Shown here: piece by piece, positions 7,685-22,866 of the stretch
Layout: every line of letters starts with the position of its first letter
How positions within the stretch are numbered: the first letter of the stretch is position 1
From: a virus
Virus record (IMG/VR): IMGVR_UViG_3300028559_001957
Span: 1-24,050 of that record
Length of the DNA stretch: 24,050 nt
Direction: 5' to 3' (one strand)
Program-made: the position numbers and the translations under genes
The notes under the pieces: generated by a model
The model's database searches: none
The model's input: only the letters and a program-made list of their open reading frames with translations
What the model was told of the DNA's origin: nothing

Positions 7685-7689
7685 ACGAC

Positions 7690-7960
7690 ATCTCGCTGAA
7701 AGGCGAAAAGGTTTGCCATACTCCTTAAAATGGTGAGTTAGATTAGTTCTTAACGTCAGGCAACGCTAACAGAGCTTGCGACCTGAGAAACCAGAAGAAA
7801 TTCTGGGAGTGTAGGTGAAAGGGCTAACACGCGATGGATGATCCTACCGACATCCGATAAGTGTTAGGGAGCCGAAAGGCTTATGGACTCAATTGGGAAA
7901 TTGAACTAACGGCTCAAGCGAACTTGTGGTAAAACACAGGGAAAGCTCTGCTTTGAAGGA
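7690..7960 (+). ncRNA. Large structured RNA upstream of nrdA, class not recognised
   Basis: This stretch is visibly much richer in G and C than its surroundings and has no convincing reading frame. It can be folded into many hairpins by eye. Examples: 7693-7706 (TCGC/GCGA with GAAA loop), 7756-7786 (TCAGG/CCTGA with inner CAA/TTG), 7791-7806 (CCAGAA-GAAA-TTCTGG), 7824-7867 (CTAACAC/GTGTTAG enclosing GGATG/CATCC), 7870-7881 (AGCC-GAAA-GGCT), 7889-7904 (TCAATT/AATTGA), 7915-7926 (CAAG/CTTG) and 7942-7954 (AAAGC/GCTTT). ACTCC (7720-7724) can pair with GGAGT (7806-7810). GTAGG (7811-7815) can pair with loop bases CCTAC (7843-7847), a possible pseudoknot. Three GAAA tetraloops suggest tertiary docking. 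A promoter lies just upstream and no terminator follows, so it may be an independent RNA or the regulatory leader of nrdAB. Group I or II intron, RNase P, tmRNA and cobalamin riboswitch signatures were sought and not found. Confidence 0.7.
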
Positions 7961-8105
7961 GCTCATTGGGAAATATTTATTAAGAATAGATATAAGATCA
8001 GTACACTTGTTTAGTAAGATATAAAGTTATTAACACTAATTTAGTTATTTTTCTTTTATAAAAATTAAAAACACTGTAAACTATTCTTTACCTTAGAAAG
8101 AAAAT
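7961..8105 (+). other. AT-rich remainder of the nrdA leader
   Basis: About 145 nt of AT-rich sequence lie between the structured RNA and nrdA. I see no good promoter, terminator or reading frame here. AGAAAGAAAAT just before the nrdA ATG is a weak purine-rich ribosome-binding candidate. Confidence 0.4.
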
Positions 8106-12147: not shown

Positions 12148-13233
12148 TTACTCCATTAATTTTAATATTTGAGATACTGTATTATCTAATGCATATTGTT
12201 CTTGTAATTTTAAACCACTAGTATTTACTTTATTAGATTCAAGTCTTTTGATAGCTTTTTCACATCCATCAATAAAATCATCTTCTTTAAATGTATAAAT
12301 ATTTCCTTGATTTGCAGCTGCCCCTTTATGGAAAAACATATTGTCATATGCTTCTATTTTAGCAGAAGGATTTACTAAGCAAGAATTCTCCTCATTTGCC
12401 CAATCTTTGTATACGTGAGCATTTAAAATTACTCCATGTTTGCCTAAAGCTAGTGAATGAAATTCTGGTAATCCCCAACCCTCTCCACCACTCATGCCAA
12501 TTATAATATCTCCACTATTTAGATAATCATTGTAAGTTTCATTACTTTGCATGAAACCTAAGAAAGATATATTAAAATATCTTTTTCCATCCATCATTGA
12601 GTTTATTAAATTTTGCTGATCTTCTGGTTTTAAAAATGGATTAAAAATAGAACATTGAAGAAAATACTTTGGATTATTACCATACTTTTTTAACCAAGAT
12701 TGTATTACAATTTTATGATTTTTCCTTTTTTCTAATTTGCCAACTAAATTAAACGTGATTCTTTCATCTTGAAAGAATTGCTTTTGTTTTACGTTAAAAT
12801 TATTTTTATCAAAAAATAATGGAATATATTCTATATTTGAACATCCACTATTTTTAAAAATTTCACATGTATATTTAGAAGTAAAAACAGTTTTATAATT
12901 GTTTTTAACAATATTAATTTCTTCTTTAGTTGGCGAATCTAATTCGTAAAATGATAAAAGAACTTGCTTCTCAGCAAAACTTTCTAAACTACCCATTAAA
13001 TGCCAAAGTTTGAATATTTTTTCTTTCCTAGAGAAAGAAGATAATGACCCATCTACAGATTTTTTAATCCATAAATTAAGATCATTATCAACTTTCTGAC
13101 TAGAAAGATCAATATTATTTCCTATTGGAAATATCTTAGCGTTAAAATTCCTTTCGTATAAATTCTTAATTAAGGCAAATGAAGTTTGCCCAAAACTTAA
13201 ATTATTTAAAGGAATATTAAGAGCTATATCCAT
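12148..13233 (-). CDS. Glycosyltransferase family 4 (GT-B)
   Basis: The 361-residue protein has normal GT4 length. The N-terminal domain includes SFGQTSFALIKNLYER (acceptor-side glycine/serine loop). The C-terminal Rossmann domain includes FNLVGKLEKRKNHKIVIQSW, which matches the G-R-x-x-x-x-K-x-x-x region, and G-G-E-G-W-G-L-P-E-F-H-S-L-A-L-G, carrying the two glutamates that bind the nucleotide-sugar donor. It is cytoplasmic with no transmembrane segment. It sits away from the main sugar operon, 1 nt after the DUF736-like gene. This hints at a role tied to DNA or virion modification rather than the surface-glycan operon, but the substrate is unknown. Confidence 0.85.
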   Translation of the reverse strand: MDIALNIPLNNLSFGQTSFALIKNLYERNFNAKIFPIGNNIDLSSQKVDNDLNLWIKKSVDGSLSSFSRKEKIFKLWHLMGSLESFAEKQVLLSFYELDSPTKEEINIVKNNYKTVFTSKYTCEIFKNSGCSNIEYIPLFFDKNNFNVKQKQFFQDERITFNLVGKLEKRKNHKIVIQSWLKKYGNNPKYFLQCSIFNPFLKPEDQQNLINSMMDGKRYFNISFLGFMQSNETYNDYLNSGDIIIGMSGGEGWGLPEFHSLALGKHGVILNAHVYKDWANEENSCLVNPSAKIEAYDNMFFHKGAAANQGNIYTFKEDDFIDGCEKAIKRLESNKVNTSGLKLQEQYALDNTVSQILKLME

Positions 13234-13234
13234 T

Positions 13235-13555
13235 TTACAATAGATCTTCCTCTACTTCTTGAACTTGTTTAGCTTGAGGTTTTTGAGCCTTATCTTTAAC
13301 TGGTTGTGGAGTTTCTGCAGTTTTTACAGCAGATGAAGATCCATTAGTATCTTTAGAAAGATAAACTCTAAAATCTGGAGCCTTTGCATTTTCACCTTTG
13401 AATTTATTGGTGAATACTACAATTTCTACTTGTTCACCAAGCTCGTCCTTGAAGTATCCAGAAAGATATTTACCGCTTTTCCCTTCTCTTTTCCATAAAG
13501 CACCAATATCTCTTTTTTTCCATTCGTTATTATTATTTGTTTGATTTGTATTCAT
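13235..13555 (-). CDS. DUF736-like protein with acidic C-terminal tail
   Basis: The 106-residue protein has a compact N-terminal domain (residues 12-67) with W-K-K-R-D-I-G-A-L-W-K-R-E, then GKYLSGYFK, and A-P-D-F-R-V-Y-L. The pattern IGxxWxxx...APDFRVY recalls DUF736 and similar small beta-rich phage proteins. The C-terminal 40 residues are Pro/Gln/Lys-rich and end E-V-E-E-D-L-L, an acidic hydrophobic tip like those of single-stranded DNA-binding proteins. A role in DNA transactions is a guess from the tail and from the neighbouring sigma factor and kinase. The ATG is 8 nt after a consensus -10 box, so the mRNA is almost leaderless. Confidence 0.6.
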   Translation of the reverse strand: MNTNQTNNNNEWKKRDIGALWKREGKSGKYLSGYFKDELGEQVEIVVFTNKFKGENAKAPDFRVYLSKDTNGSSSAVKTAETPQPVKDKAQKPQAKQVQEVEEDLL

Positions 13556-13563
13556 ATTTTATG

Positions 13564-13592
13564 ATTATAATAGCTTTATTATAAAAAGTCAA
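13564..13592 (-). promoter_or_regulatory. Sigma70-type promoter before the DUF736-like gene
   Basis: The minus strand has TTGACT (13592-13587), a 17-nt spacer and TATAAT (13569-13564). The ATG follows 8 nt later at 13555. Confidence 0.8.
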
Positions 13593-13596
13593 GAAA

Positions 13597-14181
13597 TTAT
13601 ATTTGATCATTAAAACTATCTTTAAACGATTTAATCTTTAAGAAATGAATATGCTTATTATATATATTAATCACAGTTTGAGTGCTTATATTCAATTTTT
13701 TACCAATAGCATTCCAAGAGCGATTTTTCTTTTTAGGAGAATAGAAGCGCATTTTAAATATTTTATATACTCTTTTATCTTTTAAAGATTTTAAAATATT
13801 AAGGAAATAATCGCAGTTTTCTTTTTTCATATCTTCTTTTTGATCTTGAGAATTCTCTATCATATTCTGGAGGTATTCATTATCTGTGGGTAAGAATTTA
13901 GCATTTTTATTCAAAAAATTTAAACAATGATACCTAGCTTGATTACCTAACCAAGTAGAAAATTTTACATTTTTGTCTTCATTAAAAGACAGAGCGGATT
14001 GATATACAATAACATCTTTATCTTCATAAAGGTCTTTAGGGTCATGTCCCTTTTGAGCTATAAAAGATTGATATCTTTTTACAATTTCACAAAAAATACC
14101 ACTATGTCTATGTATTAAGCATTTAAGTGATTCACTATCTTGATTGTTTTTAATATTTTTAATTAGATCTAAGTCTGTCAT
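13597..14181 (-). CDS. Phage-type RNA polymerase sigma factor (sigma2/sigma4, ECF-like)
   Basis: The 194-residue protein has a sigma2-like region at about residues 18-95 (LIHRHSGIFCEIVKRYQ, then DLYEDKDVIVYQSALSF and VKFSTWLGNQARYHCLNFL, the -10-recognition helix). It also has a sigma4-like helix-turn-helix at about 125-185 (KDKRVYKIFKMRFY, SWNAIGKKLNISTQTVINIYNKHIHFLK). This two-domain plan is that of ECF or phage sigma factors that redirect host RNA polymerase. It overlaps the dNMP kinase gene by 23 nt and is co-transcribed with it from an early-looking promoter. It is the natural candidate to read the TTAATGTGTAAT motif found before other genes here, but that link is inference. Confidence 0.75.
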   Translation of the reverse strand: MTDLDLIKNIKNNQDSESLKCLIHRHSGIFCEIVKRYQSFIAQKGHDPKDLYEDKDVIVYQSALSFNEDKNVKFSTWLGNQARYHCLNFLNKNAKFLPTDNEYLQNMIENSQDQKEDMKKENCDYFLNILKSLKDKRVYKIFKMRFYSPKKKNRSWNAIGKKLNISTQTVINIYNKHIHFLKIKSFKDSFNDQI

Positions 14182-14743
14182 ATATATTCCTTAAGTTTTT
14201 CTGCATAAGCTCATACAAGAAGTTTGTATCTTGACAAGTTTCCCAGCATATACAAAAATCAGCTACAGCTTTTAATTTGTTATCATTAGATTTTTCTTCA
14301 ATATTAGCAGGAGGTATAATAGATCCATCATCTAGTTTTCTAGATAAATGAATTAATATACCATTATGAGATTTTAACCATGAGTATTCATCATCCTTAT
14401 ATTCAATGTATCTTACGTCAGTAACAATAGGCAAGATATTGTCTTTTAATAAATTTTCTACTTTAATATCTAATTGAGAAGTCCAATATTTTCCTTCGGT
14501 TTGACTTCTTCTACATTTGCCATAAGCAACCATTAATGGTCGAACCAATTCTTTATCTGCTCCATTACATTTAAATAAATCTATATTAAACTTTTCTTTA
14601 GTAAAATCGTTTAATTCTTTTTTTAAGTCATCTGCAAAAGCTAATCTTTGAGATTTTATCTGTTTTTCTTCTAGATATTTTTTAATAATAGAGTAAAAAG
14701 TATCTTTACCACATCTAGCAACACCAGTTATACCTATAATCAT
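14159..14743 (-). CDS. Deoxynucleoside monophosphate kinase-like P-loop enzyme
   Basis: The 194-residue protein has Walker A G-V-A-R-C-G-K-D-T at residues 7-15, followed by QRLAFADDLKKEL. This is the layout of T4 gene 1-type dNMP kinases, which phosphorylate dGMP, dTMP and modified dCMP. A Walker-B/NMP-binding part appears as LPIVTDVRY, and the C-terminus has a conserved IEEKSND segment. It would act with RNR, dCMP deaminase and PurA to balance the dNTP pool. Its ATG lies exactly 6 nt after a perfect -10 box, so transcription should begin at the A of the ATG. The 3' end overlaps the sigma gene. Confidence 0.8.
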   Translation of the reverse strand: MIIGITGVARCGKDTFYSIIKKYLEEKQIKSQRLAFADDLKKELNDFTKEKFNIDLFKCNGADKELVRPLMVAYGKCRRSQTEGKYWTSQLDIKVENLLKDNILPIVTDVRYIEYKDDEYSWLKSHNGILIHLSRKLDDGSIIPPANIEEKSNDNKLKAVADFCICWETCQDTNFLYELMQKNLRNIYDRLRSN

Positions 14744-14749
14744 ATAATC

Positions 14750-14778
14750 ATTATAATAAAAATAAAATATCTTGTCAA
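14750..14778 (-). promoter_or_regulatory. Consensus sigma70 promoter of the kinase-sigma unit
   Basis: The minus strand has TTGACA (14778-14773), a 17-nt spacer and TATAAT (14755-14750): a perfect consensus. The ATG starts 6 nt later at the predicted +1. The -35 overlaps the -35 of the divergent promoter. Confidence 0.88.
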
Positions 14779-14803
14779 GTTATTAGTTTTATGGTAATAT
14801 AAT
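14772..14803 (+). promoter_or_regulatory. Promoter of the dCMP deaminase operon
   Basis: TTGTCA (14772-14777) is followed after 17 nt by TAATAT (14795-14800), overlapping TATAAT (14798-14803). The predicted +1 coincides with the ATG of a 19-codon frame at 14807. Confidence 0.7.
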
Positions 14804-14806
14804 TGG

Positions 14807-14866
14807 ATGGAATTAAAATTTATTTTGATTATGTTATTTTCAGTTTATTTATTTTATAAACTATGA
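14807..14866 (+). CDS. 19-residue hydrophobic micropeptide coupled to dCMP deaminase
   Basis: The frame encodes MELKFILIMLFSVYLFYKL and then TGA. Its ATG is 6 nt after the -10 box, at the predicted transcription start. Its stop overlaps the ATG of the dCMP deaminase gene (ATGA), the coupling seen between real genes here. The peptide is one transmembrane-length hydrophobic helix with a charged residue at each end. It could be a leader peptide whose translation delivers ribosomes to the next start, a tiny membrane protein, or both. No family is recognised; the case rests on the start, stop and context. Confidence 0.55.
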   Translation: MELKFILIMLFSVYLFYKL

Positions 14867-15273
14867 GAAGAATATCATTTGAAGAATTGGCTATTAATAT
14901 AGCTTCAGAATGTGCTAAAAGATCAGAAGACCTTCACAAGAAGGTTGGATGTTGTATTTTGAATAAAGAAGGTAGGGTATTATCGACTGGTTACAATGGA
15001 CTTTTGCCCAAAGTAAATATGGATAAAAGCTTTTGGTTGAATCGAGATTTAAGAAGAAAATACGTCATACATGCAGAGATAAATGCTTTATCAAGAATAA
15101 AGAGAGAAGAAGAACCTTATATTTTAGCTACAACTTTACTTCCATGTTCTGCTTGCGCCTCAAATATAGCTTCATATGGAATTAAGAAAGTGATTTATAA
15201 AGAAGACTATCATATGGATAAAGGATGTTTTGACATTTTTAATTTTTATAAAATTCAACTTATTAAACTATAA
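14863..15273 (+). CDS. dCMP deaminase
   Basis: The 136-residue zinc enzyme converts dCMP to dUMP, the precursor of dTMP. H70-A-E72 supplies one zinc ligand and the catalytic Glu; P94-C95-S-A-C98 supplies the other two zinc ligands. STGYNGLLPK matches the substrate loop (GYNG) of dCMP deaminases as distinct from tRNA adenosine deaminases. Phage dCMP deaminases are usually 150-190 residues with dCTP/dTTP control, so this short one may lack part of the allosteric insert. It is coupled to the upstream micropeptide by ATGA and to the next gene by TAATG. Confidence 0.92.
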   Translation: MRRISFEELAINIASECAKRSEDLHKKVGCCILNKEGRVLSTGYNGLLPKVNMDKSFWLNRDLRRKYVIHAEINALSRIKREEEPYILATTLLPCSACASNIASYGIKKVIYKEDYHMDKGCFDIFNFYKIQLIKL

Positions 15274-15665
15274 TGAAAGATATTATAATACCATTACATA
15301 AAATAAGCAGAAATGCTATTGAACCAGATAAAATATCAAATAATGTTTTTAAATTTTACTCTGATTTTGATTACGAGATTCTGCCAGAAAGAAATAATAT
15401 AATAAAGTCTGGTTTTTACTTAAAAGATATTGATTTTTCAATTTTACCGACCAATATATATGCAAAATATAATTCAATAGCTTCTAGCTTTTCATCAAAT
15501 GATTCTCATTTAGATATCAATATATACTGTTATACCTTAAAAGATAAGAATAATTTTCATTTTGCTGAAATGGGTAAAATTCTTCAAAAAAAGTCTTGCA
15601 TTTTTTATCTAAATATTATATCATCCAACTATGAAGAAAATTATATATTTGATATTATTAAGTAA
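15273..15665 (+). CDS. Hypothetical protein, possibly dUTPase-like beta protein
   Basis: The 130-residue protein is soluble and has no recognised motif. Between residues 30 and 65 the run FEILP-like, N-N-I-I-K-S-G-F-Y-L, F-S-I-L-P-T-N-I-Y-A-K-Y-N-S-I-A faintly recalls the trimeric dUTPase jelly-roll (a TG-containing strand, then xRSxLA), and the position next to dCMP deaminase would suit dUTPase. The catalytic Asp/Tyr motif is not visible, so this is only a suggestion. Its ATG shares one base with the upstream stop (TAATG). Its 3' end overlaps the exported-repeat gene by 35 nt. Confidence 0.4.
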   Translation: MKDIIIPLHKISRNAIEPDKISNNVFKFYSDFDYEILPERNNIIKSGFYLKDIDFSILPTNIYAKYNSIASSFSSNDSHLDINIYCYTLKDKNNFHFAEMGKILQKKSCIFYLNIISSNYEENYIFDIIK

Positions 15666-15927
15666 TGCTTTTACTCTAACCTTAAAAGCACAAACTACCC
15701 AAGGAACTTATATTTATAGAAACTATAAAGATTCTATAGTAAGAGTTCCATACCCATCTTATGTGGTTCAAGGTAGTTATATCTATAGAACTTATCCAAA
15801 GTCAATAATAAGAGTTCCATATCCAGAATTTACCATTAAAGGTAATGATATTTACAGAACATATCCAAAGTCTATTGTTCGTACTCCATATCCAATAGGT
15901 AAAATCGGTAATGGAATACCTGAGTAA
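15631..15927 (+). CDS. Exported protein of three 23-residue tandem repeats
   Basis: The first 20 residues form a signal peptide (Lys-rich start, hydrophobic core, cleavage expected after L-K-A before Q21). The mature part is three near-identical units of 23 residues: QG(T/S)YIYR-Y-SIVRVPYP and variants, beginning at residues 24, 47 and 70. Each unit is rich in Tyr, Arg and Pro and has the consensus G-x-x-I-Y-R-x-Y-x-x-S-I-x-R-x-P-Y-P. Such a repeat could form a short beta-solenoid or surface-binding strand in the periplasm or outside the cell. No family is recognised. An A-Q cleavage site is common in Bacteroidetes exported proteins. It overlaps both neighbours (35 and 17 nt). Confidence 0.65.
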   Translation: MKKIIYLILLSNAFTLTLKAQTTQGTYIYRNYKDSIVRVPYPSYVVQGSYIYRTYPKSIIRVPYPEFTIKGNDIYRTYPKSIVRTPYPIGKIGNGIPE

Positions 15928-16255
15928 TATATTATTATCAGTTTTTTTAAATACTACTATATTAGTAGTATGGTTTTTAACTAATGCTTATTACGAATAT
16001 GTATCTAAAGTAATACCATTCCTATTTACTTCGTATAAAGCTTACATAAAAGATAATAGTTTTGTATATTATGCAGATTTCTTAGAGACAAGAAACACCT
16101 TTATATCTAAACTGTTTTCTTGTCCATTTTGTTTAGGTTTTTGGTCATCTTTAGTGTGTTCTATGATTTATAATGTTTTATTTTATATTTGTGTAATATA
16201 TATTGTATCATTGATTTTATTCTTTGGTATAAAATATATATGCTGCAACAATTAA
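15911..16255 (+). CDS. Membrane protein with CPFCLGFW motif
   Basis: The 114-residue protein has hydrophobic segments at about residues 7-27, 83-96 and 92-110, with a soluble loop between the first and second. Before the second lies F-S-C-P-F-C-L-G-F-W-S-S, a motif typical of DUF1360-like small bacterial and phage membrane proteins, in which a CxxC sits at the membrane face. Its role is unknown; superinfection exclusion or membrane remodelling would be typical guesses. It is translated from a start inside the exported-repeat gene and its end overlaps the next gene by 13 nt. Confidence 0.55.
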   Translation: MEYLSNILLSVFLNTTILVVWFLTNAYYEYVSKVIPFLFTSYKAYIKDNSFVYYADFLETRNTFISKLFSCPFCLGFWSSLVCSMIYNVLFYICVIYIVSLILFFGIKYICCNN

Positions 16256-16512
16256 TATTAAAAACAAGTTCAGATTATACAGCTTTTTTTAATAAATTAT
16301 CTACTTTAAAACCAGAAGATCAAGCAGTTAAACAAATTTTAAATTCTTTATTTAATTTAGAGAATGGATGTTCTTGCAAAAGAAAAGGCAGATACAAAAA
16401 CTGCGGTAATCAAATACAATTTTATTTGTCCAATCTAGAAGCTACATACATAGATCAATTGAAAGCTCTGTATCAAACAGAAAATTTTAAATTTGAATTT
16501 TTAATATCTTGA
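16243..16512 (+). CDS. Small phage protein with N-G-C-S-C-K-R-K motif
   Basis: The 89-residue protein starts at the internal ATG MLQQLIL. A longer frame from 16189 would add 18 residues but would overlap the membrane protein deeply. It contains N-G-C-S-C-K-R-K-G-R-Y followed by a helical segment (YLSNLEATYIDQLKALYQ). Short phage proteins with ENGCxCxxKxR and a following helix are common, but I know no function for them. The CxC could bind metal. It ends with TGA just upstream of the promoter for the GMP-reductase-like gene. Confidence 0.5.
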   Translation: MQQLILKTSSDYTAFFNKLSTLKPEDQAVKQILNSLFNLENGCSCKRKGRYKNCGNQIQFYLSNLEATYIDQLKALYQTENFKFEFLIS

Positions 16513-16537
16513 CTTATTTTAAATCATAGACTATAAT
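16509..16537 (+). promoter_or_regulatory. Sigma70-type promoter of the GMP-reductase operon, with inverted repeat
   Basis: TTGACT (16509-16514), a 17-nt spacer and TATAAT (16532-16537) precede the ATG at 16547 by 9 nt. A perfect inverted repeat, GACTAT-AATA-ATAGTC (16529-16544), covers the -10 and the start site and could be an operator or a 5' hairpin. Confidence 0.8.
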
Positions 16538-16546
16538 AATAGTCAT

Positions 16547-17653
16547 ATGAAACAAGAGTTTAAAGAGGCGCTCAGTTATGATGATATTTCACTTTTGCCG
16601 AATTTTTCAGATATTTCGTCTAGAAAAGAAGTTGATACAACCACAAAAATAAGTAGAAACAAATATATTGATATACCAATCATTCTTTCTCCAATGGACA
16701 CGGTTTCTTCTGTAAAATCTTGCATTAAGATTAATAAAATAGGTGGAGCTGGAGTTTTACACCGCTTCATGTCCATAGAAGACCAAATGAAAAAAGCCAA
16801 AGCAATTAGAGATGAAAGTAATTTTTGTATTACAGCGATTGGTCTAAAAGATGCAGTAGAAAGAATTAGAGATACTTCATTATATACTGATATTTATTTT
16901 GTAGATACAGCTAATGGATTAGCTAAAAATGTAGAAGATTTTCTAAGGTGGTATAAAACATCTGGATACAAGCAGGATATTATTGTTGGTAACACTTTGA
17001 CAAAAGAAAGCGTTTATAGACTCGCTAATTTAAAAGCGGATGGTTTTAGACATTTAATTGGTCCAGGTTCTATGTGTTTAACTCAAGTTAAAACTGGAAT
17101 TGGTTGCCCAAGTTTGACTGGAAATTTTTACGCTTGGCAAGCCGTAAGAAATTGGGAGTTGTCACAAGTAGATTTATTTAAACAAGACGAACCCAATCCA
17201 GACCATAGACCAAGCATACTTGCTGATGGAGGTATTCGTTATCCAAAGGATTTAGTTAAAGCTATAGCAAGTGGTTGTGATGCTGTGATTTGTGGAAGAA
17301 TTTTTGCTGGATTATTAGATGCGACTGATGATGAAAATATTATTGAAAAAGATGGAAAAAGATATGCAAAATACAGAGGAATGGCTAGTCAAGATGTAGT
17401 TGAAGATTATGAATTATATGATGGAACAAAAAAGAACCTTTTTGTAGAAGGAGACAATACTTTGATTCCAATTATAGAGAGTAAATCTATAGAAGATATT
17501 GTATATGATTTTACTAATGGACTTAGAAGCTCAATGAGTTATCTTGGCTTTAGATCTATAGAGGAAATGAGAGGCGGATTATGGACCAATAAGATACAAG
17601 CCGTAAGAAATAGCCCAAACAGCATGTACGAAGGATTTGCTCATGGAAAATGA
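16547..17653 (+). CDS. GMP reductase / IMP dehydrogenase family enzyme, GMP-reductase-like
   Basis: This 368-residue TIM-barrel protein lacks the CBS pair of IMPDH. N-terminal LSYDDISLLPNFSDI and P-I-I-L-S-P-M-D-T-V are family motifs. The active-site loop is I-G-P-G-S-M-C177 followed by Q-V-K-T-G-I-G-C-P-S-L, closer to the RVKTGVGYPQL of GMP reductase than to the RVVAGVGVPQ of IMPDH. Phosphate binding is by ADGGIRYPKDLVKAI and CDAVICGR, and YRGMASQ matches the flap start. GMP reductase turns GMP into IMP with NADPH, while IMPDH drives the opposite branch, so the call matters. With PurA in the same block, the GMP-to-IMP-to-AMP direction is favoured. It heads an operon and overlaps the next gene. 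Confidence 0.75.
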   Translation: MKQEFKEALSYDDISLLPNFSDISSRKEVDTTTKISRNKYIDIPIILSPMDTVSSVKSCIKINKIGGAGVLHRFMSIEDQMKKAKAIRDESNFCITAIGLKDAVERIRDTSLYTDIYFVDTANGLAKNVEDFLRWYKTSGYKQDIIVGNTLTKESVYRLANLKADGFRHLIGPGSMCLTQVKTGIGCPSLTGNFYAWQAVRNWELSQVDLFKQDEPNPDHRPSILADGGIRYPKDLVKAIASGCDAVICGRIFAGLLDATDDENIIEKDGKRYAKYRGMASQDVVEDYELYDGTKKNLFVEGDNTLIPIIESKSIEDIVYDFTNGLRSSMSYLGFRSIEEMRGGLWTNKIQAVRNSPNSMYEGFAHGK

Positions 17654-18389
17654 ATGGCAAGAACAAGCCAAGAAGCATGCGGTAAAAAATAAAACAGAAG
17701 AAGTTTGTGGCTTAGTAGTATCAAAAGATAATCGTTTAATGTATATCGGCGCAAGAAATATATCAGAAAATAAAAGAAATAATTTTGCAATAGATCCTAA
17801 TAGTTATATGTACGCTGCTAGTATTGGAAAAGTCGAAGCTTGTTTTCATTCTCATATTAAAAACACTTCATTTTCTTGGACTGATATAAATAATAGTTTT
17901 AAATTAAATTTACCATATTATTTATATAATATTAAAGAAGATAAGATAAATTATTTTTCGCCAATTGATCATAAAGAATATAAAAAATATTTACATTTAA
18001 AATTTGATTATGGCAAAAATGACTGTTTTTCCTTGATAAGAAGTTTTTATAAAAATCAATTAAATATTGAAATGTCAGATCCAGAACAAGATAGGGCCAT
18101 GAAATATATGCCACCAGAAAATTGTCTTATCTGGAGTAGAGAAAAATACAAACAATGGGCAAATGAAAATAATCTTCTAGATATAGACGTAAATGACATC
18201 TCTCAACTCAAAAAATATGATATACTAGTTTTTAATGGGTTCAATAAAGGCGAACCAAATCATGGTATGATATATATTGAAAATGAATTAGTTTTGCATC
18301 ATCCATTCAATGATATATCTAAAATAGAATCTATCAGAAAAGCTCATTTTAAATTTATAAAATTTGTAATTAGACATGAAAAATTTTAA
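17643..18389 (+). CDS. Tail assembly protein K-like: JAMM peptidase plus NlpC/P60 hydrolase
   Basis: The 248-residue protein has two domains, as in phage lambda tail protein K. Residues 1-100 are a Mov34/JAMM metallopeptidase with E19/E20, H69-S-H71 and S78-x-x-D81. Residues 120-248 are an NlpC/P60 cysteine-peptidase domain with C128 (YGKNDCFSLI), H207 (NHGMIYI) and a third polar position near H219. Both active sites look complete. Such proteins process or insert the tail tip and cut peptidoglycan. I chose the ATG at 17643; a TTG at 17637 in the same frame is less likely. It overlaps the GMP-reductase-like gene by 11 nt and is followed by a paralogue. Confidence 0.82.
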   Translation: MENEWQEQAKKHAVKNKTEEVCGLVVSKDNRLMYIGARNISENKRNNFAIDPNSYMYAASIGKVEACFHSHIKNTSFSWTDINNSFKLNLPYYLYNIKEDKINYFSPIDHKEYKKYLHLKFDYGKNDCFSLIRSFYKNQLNIEMSDPEQDRAMKYMPPENCLIWSREKYKQWANENNLLDIDVNDISQLKKYDILVFNGFNKGEPNHGMIYIENELVLHHPFNDISKIESIRKAHFKFIKFVIRHEKF

Positions 18390-19137
18390 CTCAATAGACG
18401 AAAACACTTTAAATAAAGTAAGGGCATATTGCTCTTCTAATAAAAATGAAGAGTCTTGTGGTTTTATATATAAAAATAATTCTAACATTTTAAATATTTA
18501 TAAGTGTCAAAATATAGCTTCTGATCCAAAAAAGTTTTTTTTAATAAACGACTCAGATTACGAAAAATGTTCTTTTAAGGGTAAGATTATAACTTGTTTC
18601 CATTCTCATTTAAATAATAAAATATTTTCATCAGAGGATATAAACAATAGCTTACAATCAGAAATTCCATATTTATTATACGACATTCAAAATGATGAAT
18701 TTAATTTTTTTGATTCTATAAAATACTCTTATTATAGTAAATATATAAATCTGCCTTATATTGCAGGAGTTAACGATTGCTGGTCAACTATCCAAAAATT
18801 TTTAAATAATGAAACAAATTTCAAAGCAACCGAACCAGATCCATCAAGACTCGATAAACCAGATCAAATATTATCGTGGGATTGGAGTGATCGTAAGGCG
18901 TGGATTGAATCAATGAATGCAATCAAAGTCGCTCCAACTCCAAAGAATGAAGATCAGTTAAAAACCTATGATGTTTTAATTTTAAAAAGTAAATATGAAA
19001 AAATACCAACATTTGGAGCATTATTATTAGAAGACAACTTAATCTTGCATCAAAATGATCATGAAATATCTAGAATAGAAGGTTTAAGAAAAGGACATAT
19101 AAATCTAATTAATTACGTTGGAAGATTTGACCCATGA
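18376..19137 (+). CDS. Second JAMM-NlpC/P60 protein, NlpC/P60 histidine replaced
   Basis: The 253-residue protein is a diverged paralogue of the preceding gene with the same domain order. The JAMM site is intact (E25/E26, H76-S-H78, S85-x-x-D88). In the NlpC/P60 domain C135 remains (GVNDCWSTI), but the segment equivalent to P-N-H-G-M is P-T-F-G-A at 211-215, so the catalytic His is Phe. The domain may thus be a binding module rather than an enzyme. The start overlaps the first paralogue by 14 nt and the end overlaps the aminotransferase ATG by 4 nt. Tandem duplication followed by division of labour is the likeliest history. Confidence 0.78.
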   Translation: MKNFNSIDENTLNKVRAYCSSNKNEESCGFIYKNNSNILNIYKCQNIASDPKKFFLINDSDYEKCSFKGKIITCFHSHLNNKIFSSEDINNSLQSEIPYLLYDIQNDEFNFFDSIKYSYYSKYINLPYIAGVNDCWSTIQKFLNNETNFKATEPDPSRLDKPDQILSWDWSDRKAWIESMNAIKVAPTPKNEDQLKTYDVLILKSKYEKIPTFGALLLEDNLILHQNDHEISRIEGLRKGHINLINYVGRFDP

Positions 19138-20603: not shown

Positions 20604-20848
20604 TGAAACAAGATCAGCAAAAAGAATTAGCGGAAGTTAGTTTGTATGTTCAGCCTTATTTTAGAGGTCCAATTAGAAGACTAGCCCCTAAAATGCAAAG
20701 AAATGACCATTGCCAAATCAATAATAAAAAGTTTAAAAAATGCTGTGGTGCAGATGGTAGTAATTTTTGCAAAAAACTTCTTGGTGATTACTTGAACGAA
20801 CTTCAAAAGGCTCAAGAACAATTATCAAAAAATGATCAAAGCAGTTGA
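20603..20848 (+). CDS. Small protein with degenerate SEC-C-like zinc motif
   Basis: The 81-residue protein contains R-N-D-H-C-Q-I-N-N-K-K-F-K-K-C-C-G at 33-49. It aligns with the SEC-C consensus RNDPCPCGSGKKYKKCCG, the zinc hook of SecA that also occurs alone in small proteins. The second Cys of the CxC pair is Ile39, so only C37, C47 and C48 remain, with H36 or C56 as a possible fourth ligand. The C-terminal helix (YLNELQKAQEQLSK) may mediate binding. It overlaps the purA start by 17 nt. Its function is unknown. Confidence 0.6.
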   Translation: MKQDQQKELAEVSLYVQPYFRGPIRRLAPKMQRNDHCQINNKKFKKCCGADGSNFCKKLLGDYLNELQKAQEQLSKNDQSS

Positions 20849-21824
20849 TGTAATCTTTGGATTAGCTTGGGGTGATGAAGGCAAAGGCAAAATAAGTAAT
20901 GCAATATCTAAAAATTATGATATTGTTTGTCGTTGGAATGGTGGTCCAAATGCAGGTCACACAGTTTATCTTAATGATAAAAAGTATAAAACTCATATCA
21001 TTCCTTGTGGCGTTTTTCAAAATAAACTTAGTATCATTGGTCCAAATTGCGTTATCAATATTGATAAATTTTTTGATGAGATAGAATATTTAAAAAGAGA
21101 GGGATTTAATACATCTTTAATTAAAGTAAGTCCCAAGACACATATTATTACTGAAAAGCATATTCAGTATGATCTTAAATTCTTAAAACCTAAACTTGGA
21201 ACTACTGGACAAGGAATTGCTCCAGCTTACGCTGATAAAGCTTTACGAACTGGAAAACTTGCTGGAAATTATTTAGATAAACAATATCTTTGGGATGGTG
21301 AGCTTTACGGAGAAATTCTATGCGAAGGAGCGCAAAGCTTTTGGTTGGATTTAAATTATGGAGATTATCCATATGTTACAAGTAGCGAGACTTTGCCGTA
21401 TTCAGCTTGTTCTTTAGGGTTTAGTCCTAGAAAAATTAGAGAGATTATTGGAGTAGCAAAAATTTATGATACAAAAAGTGGAGTAGATCCATTATTTCCA
21501 GAATCTCTTTGGGAAGATCCAGAGCTAAATATGATTATTGATATTGGTCAAGAATTTGGATCTACAACTGGAAGAAAAAGAATAGTAAATTGGCTCAATT
21601 TAAACAAGCTAATTGATGCAGTTAAAATCTCTGGAGTAACTAAACTTATAATTAACAAATGTGATGTATTAGAACAAATTAATACTTTTAAAGCATATCA
21701 AAATAATACTTTATATAAATTTAATACCCTACAAGGAATGCAGTCTTTTATTAAAGCTTATTTAAATCACGCACTAAATAATTATATTGAAGTAATATTT
21801 TCTGGCGATAAAAGTAAAATTTAA
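20832..21824 (+). CDS. purA: Adenylosuccinate synthetase, short form
   Basis: The 330-residue protein converts IMP, aspartate and GTP to adenylosuccinate. It shows G10-L-A-W-G-D15-E-G-K-G-K (P-loop and catalytic Asp), G-P-N-A-G-H43-T-V (catalytic His), GTTGQGIAPAYADK, EGAQSFWLDLNYGDYPYVTSS, and C-terminal G-S-T-T-G-R-K-R. Bacterial PurA is about 430 residues; this size matches short archaeal-type PurA and phage PurZ. PurZ enzymes, which make 2-aminoadenine, replace the catalytic Asp; here Asp15 is kept, so the adenine route is expected. The plus stop TAA and the stop of the converging HNH gene share the palindrome TTAA at 21821-21824, leaving no room for a terminator. Confidence 0.92.
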   Translation: MIKAVDVIFGLAWGDEGKGKISNAISKNYDIVCRWNGGPNAGHTVYLNDKKYKTHIIPCGVFQNKLSIIGPNCVINIDKFFDEIEYLKREGFNTSLIKVSPKTHIITEKHIQYDLKFLKPKLGTTGQGIAPAYADKALRTGKLAGNYLDKQYLWDGELYGEILCEGAQSFWLDLNYGDYPYVTSSETLPYSACSLGFSPRKIREIIGVAKIYDTKSGVDPLFPESLWEDPELNMIIDIGQEFGSTTGRKRIVNWLNLNKLIDAVKISGVTKLIINKCDVLEQINTFKAYQNNTLYKFNTLQGMQSFIKAYLNHALNNYIEVIFSGDKSKI

Positions 21825-22445: not shown

Positions 22446-22866
22446 TGGACCCGAAGAGAATTGAACTCTTGTGTTTTAAAAATCTAAATTAAAAATACTA
22501 CAAGTTTATTTTATTCCGTTAGTTCGCTAAAGAGTCGAATAAACAATTGGTTTTTAGCTATTCATTTAATAATAAATTTAACCTTAGTTAAGCTTATCCT
22601 TAATAATTCTTACAAGAAATCAAATGAAAAGGATCTCATAAGAATACATCTAATAACGCAATATTCCAGTAGATGTGTCGTGGATATCACGCTGTAACTT
22701 AGGCTACAGATTCGGTCATCTCAACAAGAGAAACTCTTGCAGAAATATGACCTTTATATTTTGCTGTTTTGGCAGTTAATATAATTGAAACTTTTTTAGG
22801 AGTCCTCGATTCAACCTCCACTTGCATTTCAATTTATTTTCTTAAAATCGAAACCATTACGGGCCC
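22446..22866 (-). ncRNA. ssrA: Transfer-messenger RNA (phage tmRNA)
   Basis: The 421-nt RNA begins GGGCCCGTAATGGTTTCGAT, the standard tmRNA 5' end. It finishes with a T-arm (AAGAG-TTCAATT-CTCTT) and CGGGTCC plus discriminator A, giving a 7-bp acceptor stem; CCA is not encoded (AGT follows). Helix 2 pairs GCAAG with CTTGT and TAAATT with AATTTA. Pseudoknot 1 is GGAG/CTCC (22816-22819, 22799-22802) with TTGAA/TTCAA. Twelve nt later TTAACT precedes the resume codon GCC (22773-22771). The tag frame runs 24 codons to TAA at 22701-22699, in the loop of a helix CTGTA/TACAG. It starts AKTAKYKG and ends MTESVA. A further ACATCTA/TAGATGT stem and GGAATA/TATTCT pairing fit pseudoknot 2. It rescues stalled ribosomes and tags their products. 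Confidence 0.93.

Follow-up and report, generated by a model that had tools for sequence, protein, structure and literature searches.

The question raised by this locus is what a 19-codon open reading frame is doing directly upstream of a viral dCMP deaminase gene. The original prediction had seen in it either a leader peptide that lets a leaderless message feed ribosomes into a gene lacking its own ribosome-binding site, or a membrane protein of very small size. The window, that is, the whole stretch of DNA analysed, is a 24,050-base virus record (G000), and related segments have a mean G+C content of 28 %.

Organisation of the locus and its surroundings

The features of the micro-ORF locus are listed by coordinates and strand.

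14159..14743, minus strand: divergent nucleotide-kinase-like gene of leaderless type (ATG 6 nt after the -10 hexamer)
14750..14778, minus strand: divergent promoter of the kinase gene, TTGACA-17-TATAAT (12/12)
14771..14779, no strand: palindrome CTTGTCAAG with the overlapping -35 boxes of both divergent promoters
14772..14777, plus strand: -35 hexamer TTGTCA of the micro-ORF/deaminase promoter, from the promoter scan and kept as CTTGTCAAG in relatives
14795..14800, plus strand: -10 hexamer TAATAT with TG upstream (extended -10 type), 17 nt from the -35 hexamer, the spacing being the same in relatives
14807..14866, plus strand: micro-ORF MELKFILIMLFSVYLFYKL, 19 codons with one predicted membrane helix, based on translation, leaderless-type spacing and conservation
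14863..14866, plus strand: ATGA, shared by the stop of the micro-ORF and the start of the deaminase
14863..15273, plus strand: dCMP deaminase, 136 aa (Pfam PF00383, E 1.7e-18)
15273..15665, plus strand: next gene in the same direction, with no assigned function, in 1-base overlap (TAATG) with the deaminase stop

The frame described in the original prediction is present at the predicted +1, its ATG lying 6 nt past the end of the -10 hexamer of TTGTCA-17-TAATAT, which is the expected start of transcription from this promoter. Its TGA (14864-14866) shares an ATGA with the deaminase ATG (14863-14865), which is the stop-start overlap that had been claimed, and the ATGA recurs in 8/8 loci of the closest family described below. 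Promoter-like sites in 13000-17000 numbered 29 against 29.5 expected from shuffles, so a single promoter match in the window proves nothing, and the evidence for the promoter is its conserved position in relatives, since the scan match alone is at chance level. The window peptide is hydrophobic over a length sufficient for one helix (Kyte-Doolittle mean of 2.09 in its best 15 residues) and is predicted to form a single membrane helix with an acidic N-terminus and a basic C-terminus.

The -35 boxes of the two divergent promoters overlap on the palindrome at 14771-14779 and both first genes look leaderless; two polymerases could hardly use the overlapping boxes at the same time. For the kinase-like protein, Pfam gives P-mevalo_kinase and DNMK, each scoring weakly and under the cut-off. 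Searches for its relatives were negative in 50,697 phage records and brought up a single distant hit in the genome collection, to an Armatimonadetes MAG at 30 % identity. Opposite the kinase, 6 of 8 loci checked (L116, L117, L120, L122, L123 and L157) carry, where the window has the micro-ORF, a membrane protein of about 115 aa that starts 5-6 nt behind a -10 hexamer; L130 and L162 have similar ORFs opposite the kinase with no strict promoter match. This DUF1360-like protein differs from the micropeptides in being full length and in having a CxxC-type stretch, and the likeness is limited to a resemblance of the first helix.

Further features of the window, on both sides of the locus, are as follows.

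7686-7990, plus strand: 305-nt block before the ribonucleotide reductase gene, folding better than 100/100 shuffles (z -3.7)
13597-14181, minus strand: sigma-70-like protein (PF04542, 25.5 bits; TIGR02937, 41.4 bits, just below the cut-off)
15911-16255: DUF1360 protein (Pfam DUF1360 match, run on this window protein only)
16547-17653, plus strand: IMP dehydrogenase/GMP reductase family protein
17652-19137, plus strand: two adjoining proteins, each with Prok-JAB-like stretches that miss the Pfam cut-off; the first has an NlpC/P60 domain as well
20832-21824, plus strand: short adenylosuccinate-synthetase-like protein (PRK01117, 258 bits; PurZ, 98 bits; both below the cut-off)
22446-22866, minus strand: phage-encoded tmRNA (Rfam RF00023, 80 bits)

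The block at 7686-7990 has no Rfam gathering match and only a weak match to RMST_8 (E 2.5). Its copies in L026 and L031 share 99.7 % identity with it, compared with only 82-85 % between the deaminases of the contigs concerned and that of the window; this suggests a mobile or very conserved RNA. The sigma-70-like protein may serve phage promoters, and the proteins at 17652-19137 look like tail-type peptidases from their sequences. The tmRNA has an odd tag of 24 aa according to ARAGORN, and similar DNA occurs in many related loci.

Conservation of the micro-ORF and its counterparts

A search with the window protein found 24 viral loci with deaminase relatives. The 19-codon ORF with its ATGA is present in L001-L004, L008, L012 and L154, which together with the window make up the eight members of family I (peptide examples MELSFIVTILFSLYLFYKL and MELNFVLIVLFSIYLYFNL). 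The deaminases of six of these loci (L001-L004, L008 and L012) are 96 to 64 % identical to that of the window, and for L154 (contig 3300017917_003998) no deaminase identity value is listed. A relaxed DNA pattern of the ORF had 7 matches in the whole viral collection, namely the upstream regions of these six deaminases and L154, all of them the same type of locus. The frame is kept in these seven viral loci. As for a second copy at another place, the pattern had no match anywhere in 16 records that lack it upstream of the deaminase or at the promoter opposite the kinase, a count to be read with the reservation that some of these records may be incomplete and that the pattern is specific to family I. 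In five deaminase neighbourhoods of cultured phages the annotation shows no such micro-gene.

Whether the amino acids or only the frame are conserved had been proposed as a check, and the residues themselves prove to be under purifying selection. Seven of the 19 peptide positions are invariant in family I, and over its 28 pairs the mean pS is 0.43 and the mean pN 0.15. Because pairs share ancestry, neutral evolution was simulated along a tree, which was drawn from the same short alignment under a simple substitution model; for families I, II and III taken separately, all 1000 neutral simulations had a higher pN/pS than was observed, and the frame stayed open in all eight family I members in 0/1000 simulations. 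Changes per codon position, counted on trees drawn by hand, are lowest at position 2 both in family I (18/7/18; p = 0.06 for this test alone) and in family II (22/11/35). In family III they are 42/15/41 against 33/27/30 in the same phase upstream. Within its T-rich composition the hydrophobicity of family I is matched by 8 to 27 % of shuffles, and since it is no more than composition provides, the helix in the window peptide alone should not be over-read.

More distant deaminases, collected by a profile search and two single-sequence searches, are preceded at the same place by other short, mostly hydrophobic ORFs, exemplified by MTMSVILGILIFIAMSIKNK (family II), MVQTIICIAIGIGIAIKWHFFQNE (family III), MDYQNLFCISSGIAISIYWWYKNL (family IV) and MEALSNIILFSIFLYLILNNCRGLNGK (family V, in which we also placed L275, MEMTLIVLFAGFVYIRLGQMAK). 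The micro-ORFs of the clade thus fall into five sequence groups of 19-30 codons that end at the deaminase start; in families III-V stop and start either overlap by other lengths or are separated by 1-3 bases, and in the odd case of L042 the ORF extends 26 nt beyond the GTG start of the deaminase. Of the 9 rows tested from families II and III, 8 are matched in hydrophobicity by no more than 1.2 % of their shuffles (5.6 % for the ninth, L061), and the results for families IV, V and L073 are mixed (18, 0.8, 35, 2.2 and 14 %). A PHROGs scan of eight micropeptides of families II-V, the 19-residue window peptide being below the 20-residue minimum, returned weak matches only. One of these eight matched a holin (E 0.078), an identity that was rejected, as was a lysis context: neighbours with matches are mostly genes of nucleotide metabolism.

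Short hydrophobic ORFs also adjoin three distant deaminases (L073, MEFLTVVVCYFFFRIGYLVFFKNASF; L085, MVDLFIALGIAYFVFRVLYLSFQFRG; L301, MLFLGIVALALGLSIIWEVAFGGH), and on reading of the DNA they are preceded by Shine-Dalgarno-like letters; the scripted test caught only L085 among them, and most other distant deaminase rows have no short hydrophobic ORF. If these three are real, the link between membrane-type micropeptides and dCMP deaminase would be wider than leaderless translation, which is a lead and not a result.

Starts of the deaminase gene and the choice between explanations

The census of deaminase starts was based on 113 unique rows (146 positions minus 33 duplicates), from which a clade set of 58 rows was picked by hand; L299, on the same contig as L038, and the distant L085 were left out of it. 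Five outgroup rows were added for the tree, which thus has 63 rows and leaves 50 of the 113 outside. After reading of the DNA, L042, L049, L058, L065, L292 and L294 were reassigned by hand to the micro-ORF class against the script, and L005 and L006 were moved from that class to deaminase-first because a separate promoter match lies before the deaminase ATG and the short ORF upstream stops 12 nt short of it. With these assignments, 37 of the 58 loci have a micro-ORF, 14 have no small ORF before the deaminase, the ATG of which lies 6-7 nt behind a -10 hexamer, and in 7 the stop of a larger gene, phosphodiesterase-like by sequence reading in 6 of them, overlaps or touches the deaminase start.

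A strict promoter test, in which the -35/-10 pair had to be located 4-9 nt before the ATG, was passed by 14/14 deaminase-first and 25/37 micro-ORF loci, all 39 of them at 6-8 nt, with a background of 116/5710 ATG triplets (2.0 %) in the group. Among the 12 micro-ORF loci that fail, L042 and L008 pass when the right ATG is taken and the others have weaker hexamers. A Shine-Dalgarno-like match at -18 to -3 is present at 0/58 deaminase starts of the clade, which bears out the proposal that the gene has no ribosome-binding site of its own. In 162 kb of related sequence with 176 starts, -10 boxes with a -35 box peak 6-9 nt before starts and Shine-Dalgarno-like 5-mers are rare.

The arrangement is tied to the deaminase. 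Of the group's 154 genes other than the deaminase, a single one has an ORF of 14-35 codons that ends at its start, and that ORF is not hydrophobic. Of 64 ATGs that follow a promoter match (in 52 segments), those in the window, L030 and L058 open a short ORF coupled to the deaminase, and one in L030 opens a coupled short ORF of 8 codons before a 71-aa ORF.

Four deaminase-first loci (L005-L007 and L036) keep the CTTGTCAAG promoter, the -35 region of which is also present in 8/8 family I loci, and have the deaminase ATG at the position of the window's micro-ORF ATG. In the tree they form one starred group (100/98) with six family I rows, and L012 and L154, of the same peptide family, lie outside it; families III and IV, and likewise II and V, each form one starred group. 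Loss of the micro-ORF in these four loci or an exchange of promoter blocks would explain the pattern, and the tree favours neither. In both cases the deaminase can dispense with the micro-ORF; what is constant is the leaderless position.

The interval 14807-14866 is probably a genuine micro-gene: its message would be leaderless, its translated product a micropeptide with one membrane helix, and its coupling to the deaminase a matter of termination and re-initiation. Selection against amino-acid change speaks for a product of some importance, and a peptide kept by selection most likely acts on its own; translation itself is inferred from the substitution patterns. A membrane-linked role of its own is ranked first, and a leader without a functional product second, because the residues are under selection and the relatives without the micro-ORF show that the deaminase does without the peptide.

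According to the second reading, the ORF loads ribosomes at the leaderless 5' end and hands them to the deaminase, or tunes it, and the peptide is discarded. This would account for the ATGA or near-overlap throughout the micro-ORF families, for deaminase starts without Shine-Dalgarno sequences, and for peptides that differ among families under a constant layout, but it leaves aside the selection on amino acids in three families and the hydrophobicity of families II and III beyond their composition. In addition, the 14 relatives that start the deaminase directly at the leaderless position need no feeder. We consider it unlikely as a full account. The ribosome-feeding part of the original prediction stands as far as leaderless spacing, stop-start coupling and the missing Shine-Dalgarno sequence are concerned, all of which are conserved, and fails as the whole reason for the ORF, given that 14/58 loci are deaminase-first.

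Frameshifting that fuses the helix to the enzyme, giving a membrane-anchored deaminase, would suit the hydrophobic helix immediately preceding the enzyme in many loci; it is highly improbable, as even family III contains both +1 (L043) and +2 (L046) ORFs with respect to the deaminase, and overlaps differ in length, which leaves no common frame for a fusion. An attenuating leader peptide controlling transcription into the operon is equally hard to credit: the ORF does stand at the operon 5' end, but 13000-17000 contains no terminator-like site, the region has no Rfam match and an unremarkable fold (z -1.2), and the micro-ORF has no run of one regulatory codon. A chance frame in AT-rich DNA, although about 16 % of shuffled versions of the window's ORF that keep its dinucleotides still have an open frame of this length, is scarcely conceivable in view of the neutral simulations of the eight loci and the recurrence of a micro-ORF in most of the clade.

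Proposed mechanism and relation to known systems

For the micropeptide gene proposed here, the promoter spacing would have RNA polymerase start at, or 1-2 bases from, the ATG at 14807, and ribosomes would begin on the 5'-terminal AUG without a leader. Leaderless translation of this type withstands kasugamycin (PMC5230787). The predicted product is a 19-residue membrane peptide with the single helix and terminal charges given above. Ribosomes stopping at the TGA of the ATGA would re-initiate on the overlapping AUG and make dCMP deaminase, as the overlap and the missing Shine-Dalgarno sequence suggest, and the peptide would have a function of its own, which may be exerted at the membrane and balanced against the deaminase. 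Precedents for the steps of this chain are known from mycobacteria (PMC4633059) and from ATGA gene pairs (PMC6728339). More speculatively, and with little confidence, the nascent helix could draw the message to the membrane and so set the local enzyme output, or the micropeptide could work with the enzyme there; phages would then have placed, kept or exchanged such a first-cistron micropeptide repeatedly. The micropeptide sequence may change from clade to clade under a constant layout.

The loci offer a natural series for how a gene without a Shine-Dalgarno sequence starts, the promoter position holding either the AUG of the enzyme or a micro-ORF with ATGA. They also indicate that 19-codon genes, which annotation skips, are detectable in uncultured phages by conserved layout and substitution pattern, and they point to an association of phage dCMP deaminases with micropeptides of membrane type. 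Searches of an open-licence library found no description of a micro-ORF in front of the dCMP deaminase gene of a phage.

The closest known class is the leaderless 'coupled' small ORFs of mycobacteria with an RTGA overlap with the next gene (Shell et al. 2015, PMC4633059), which are the first ORF of a leaderless transcript, have 5-50 codons and lie directly before an annotated gene; the window's ORF, with 19 codons and an ATGA, agrees with them in length and overlap. In contrast to that class, the ORFs reported here belong to uncultured aquatic phages, precede one enzyme and are mostly hydrophobic, whereas the conserved mycobacterial examples are described as cysteine-rich and the word 'hydrophobic' is absent from the available text; ribosome footprints were measured in mycobacteria, and the present ORFs are known from sequence. 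The ATGA overlap is shared with gene pairs for which termination-reinitiation coupling was strict in 13/14 tested and the need for a Shine-Dalgarno sequence variable (Huber et al. 2019, PMC6728339); unlike those pairs in general, the upstream partner here has 19 codons and a leaderless-type start. In its very small size and single predicted membrane helix the peptide resembles the prokaryotic small membrane proteins collected with the Pro-SMP finder (PMC10903887). The kind of arrangement is already known, since leaderless small ORFs coupled by RTGA have been described in mycobacteria; what appears to be new is that such ORFs occur in phages, recur before one enzyme, change their peptide while the layout is constant, and are present in some loci of a natural series and missing from others.
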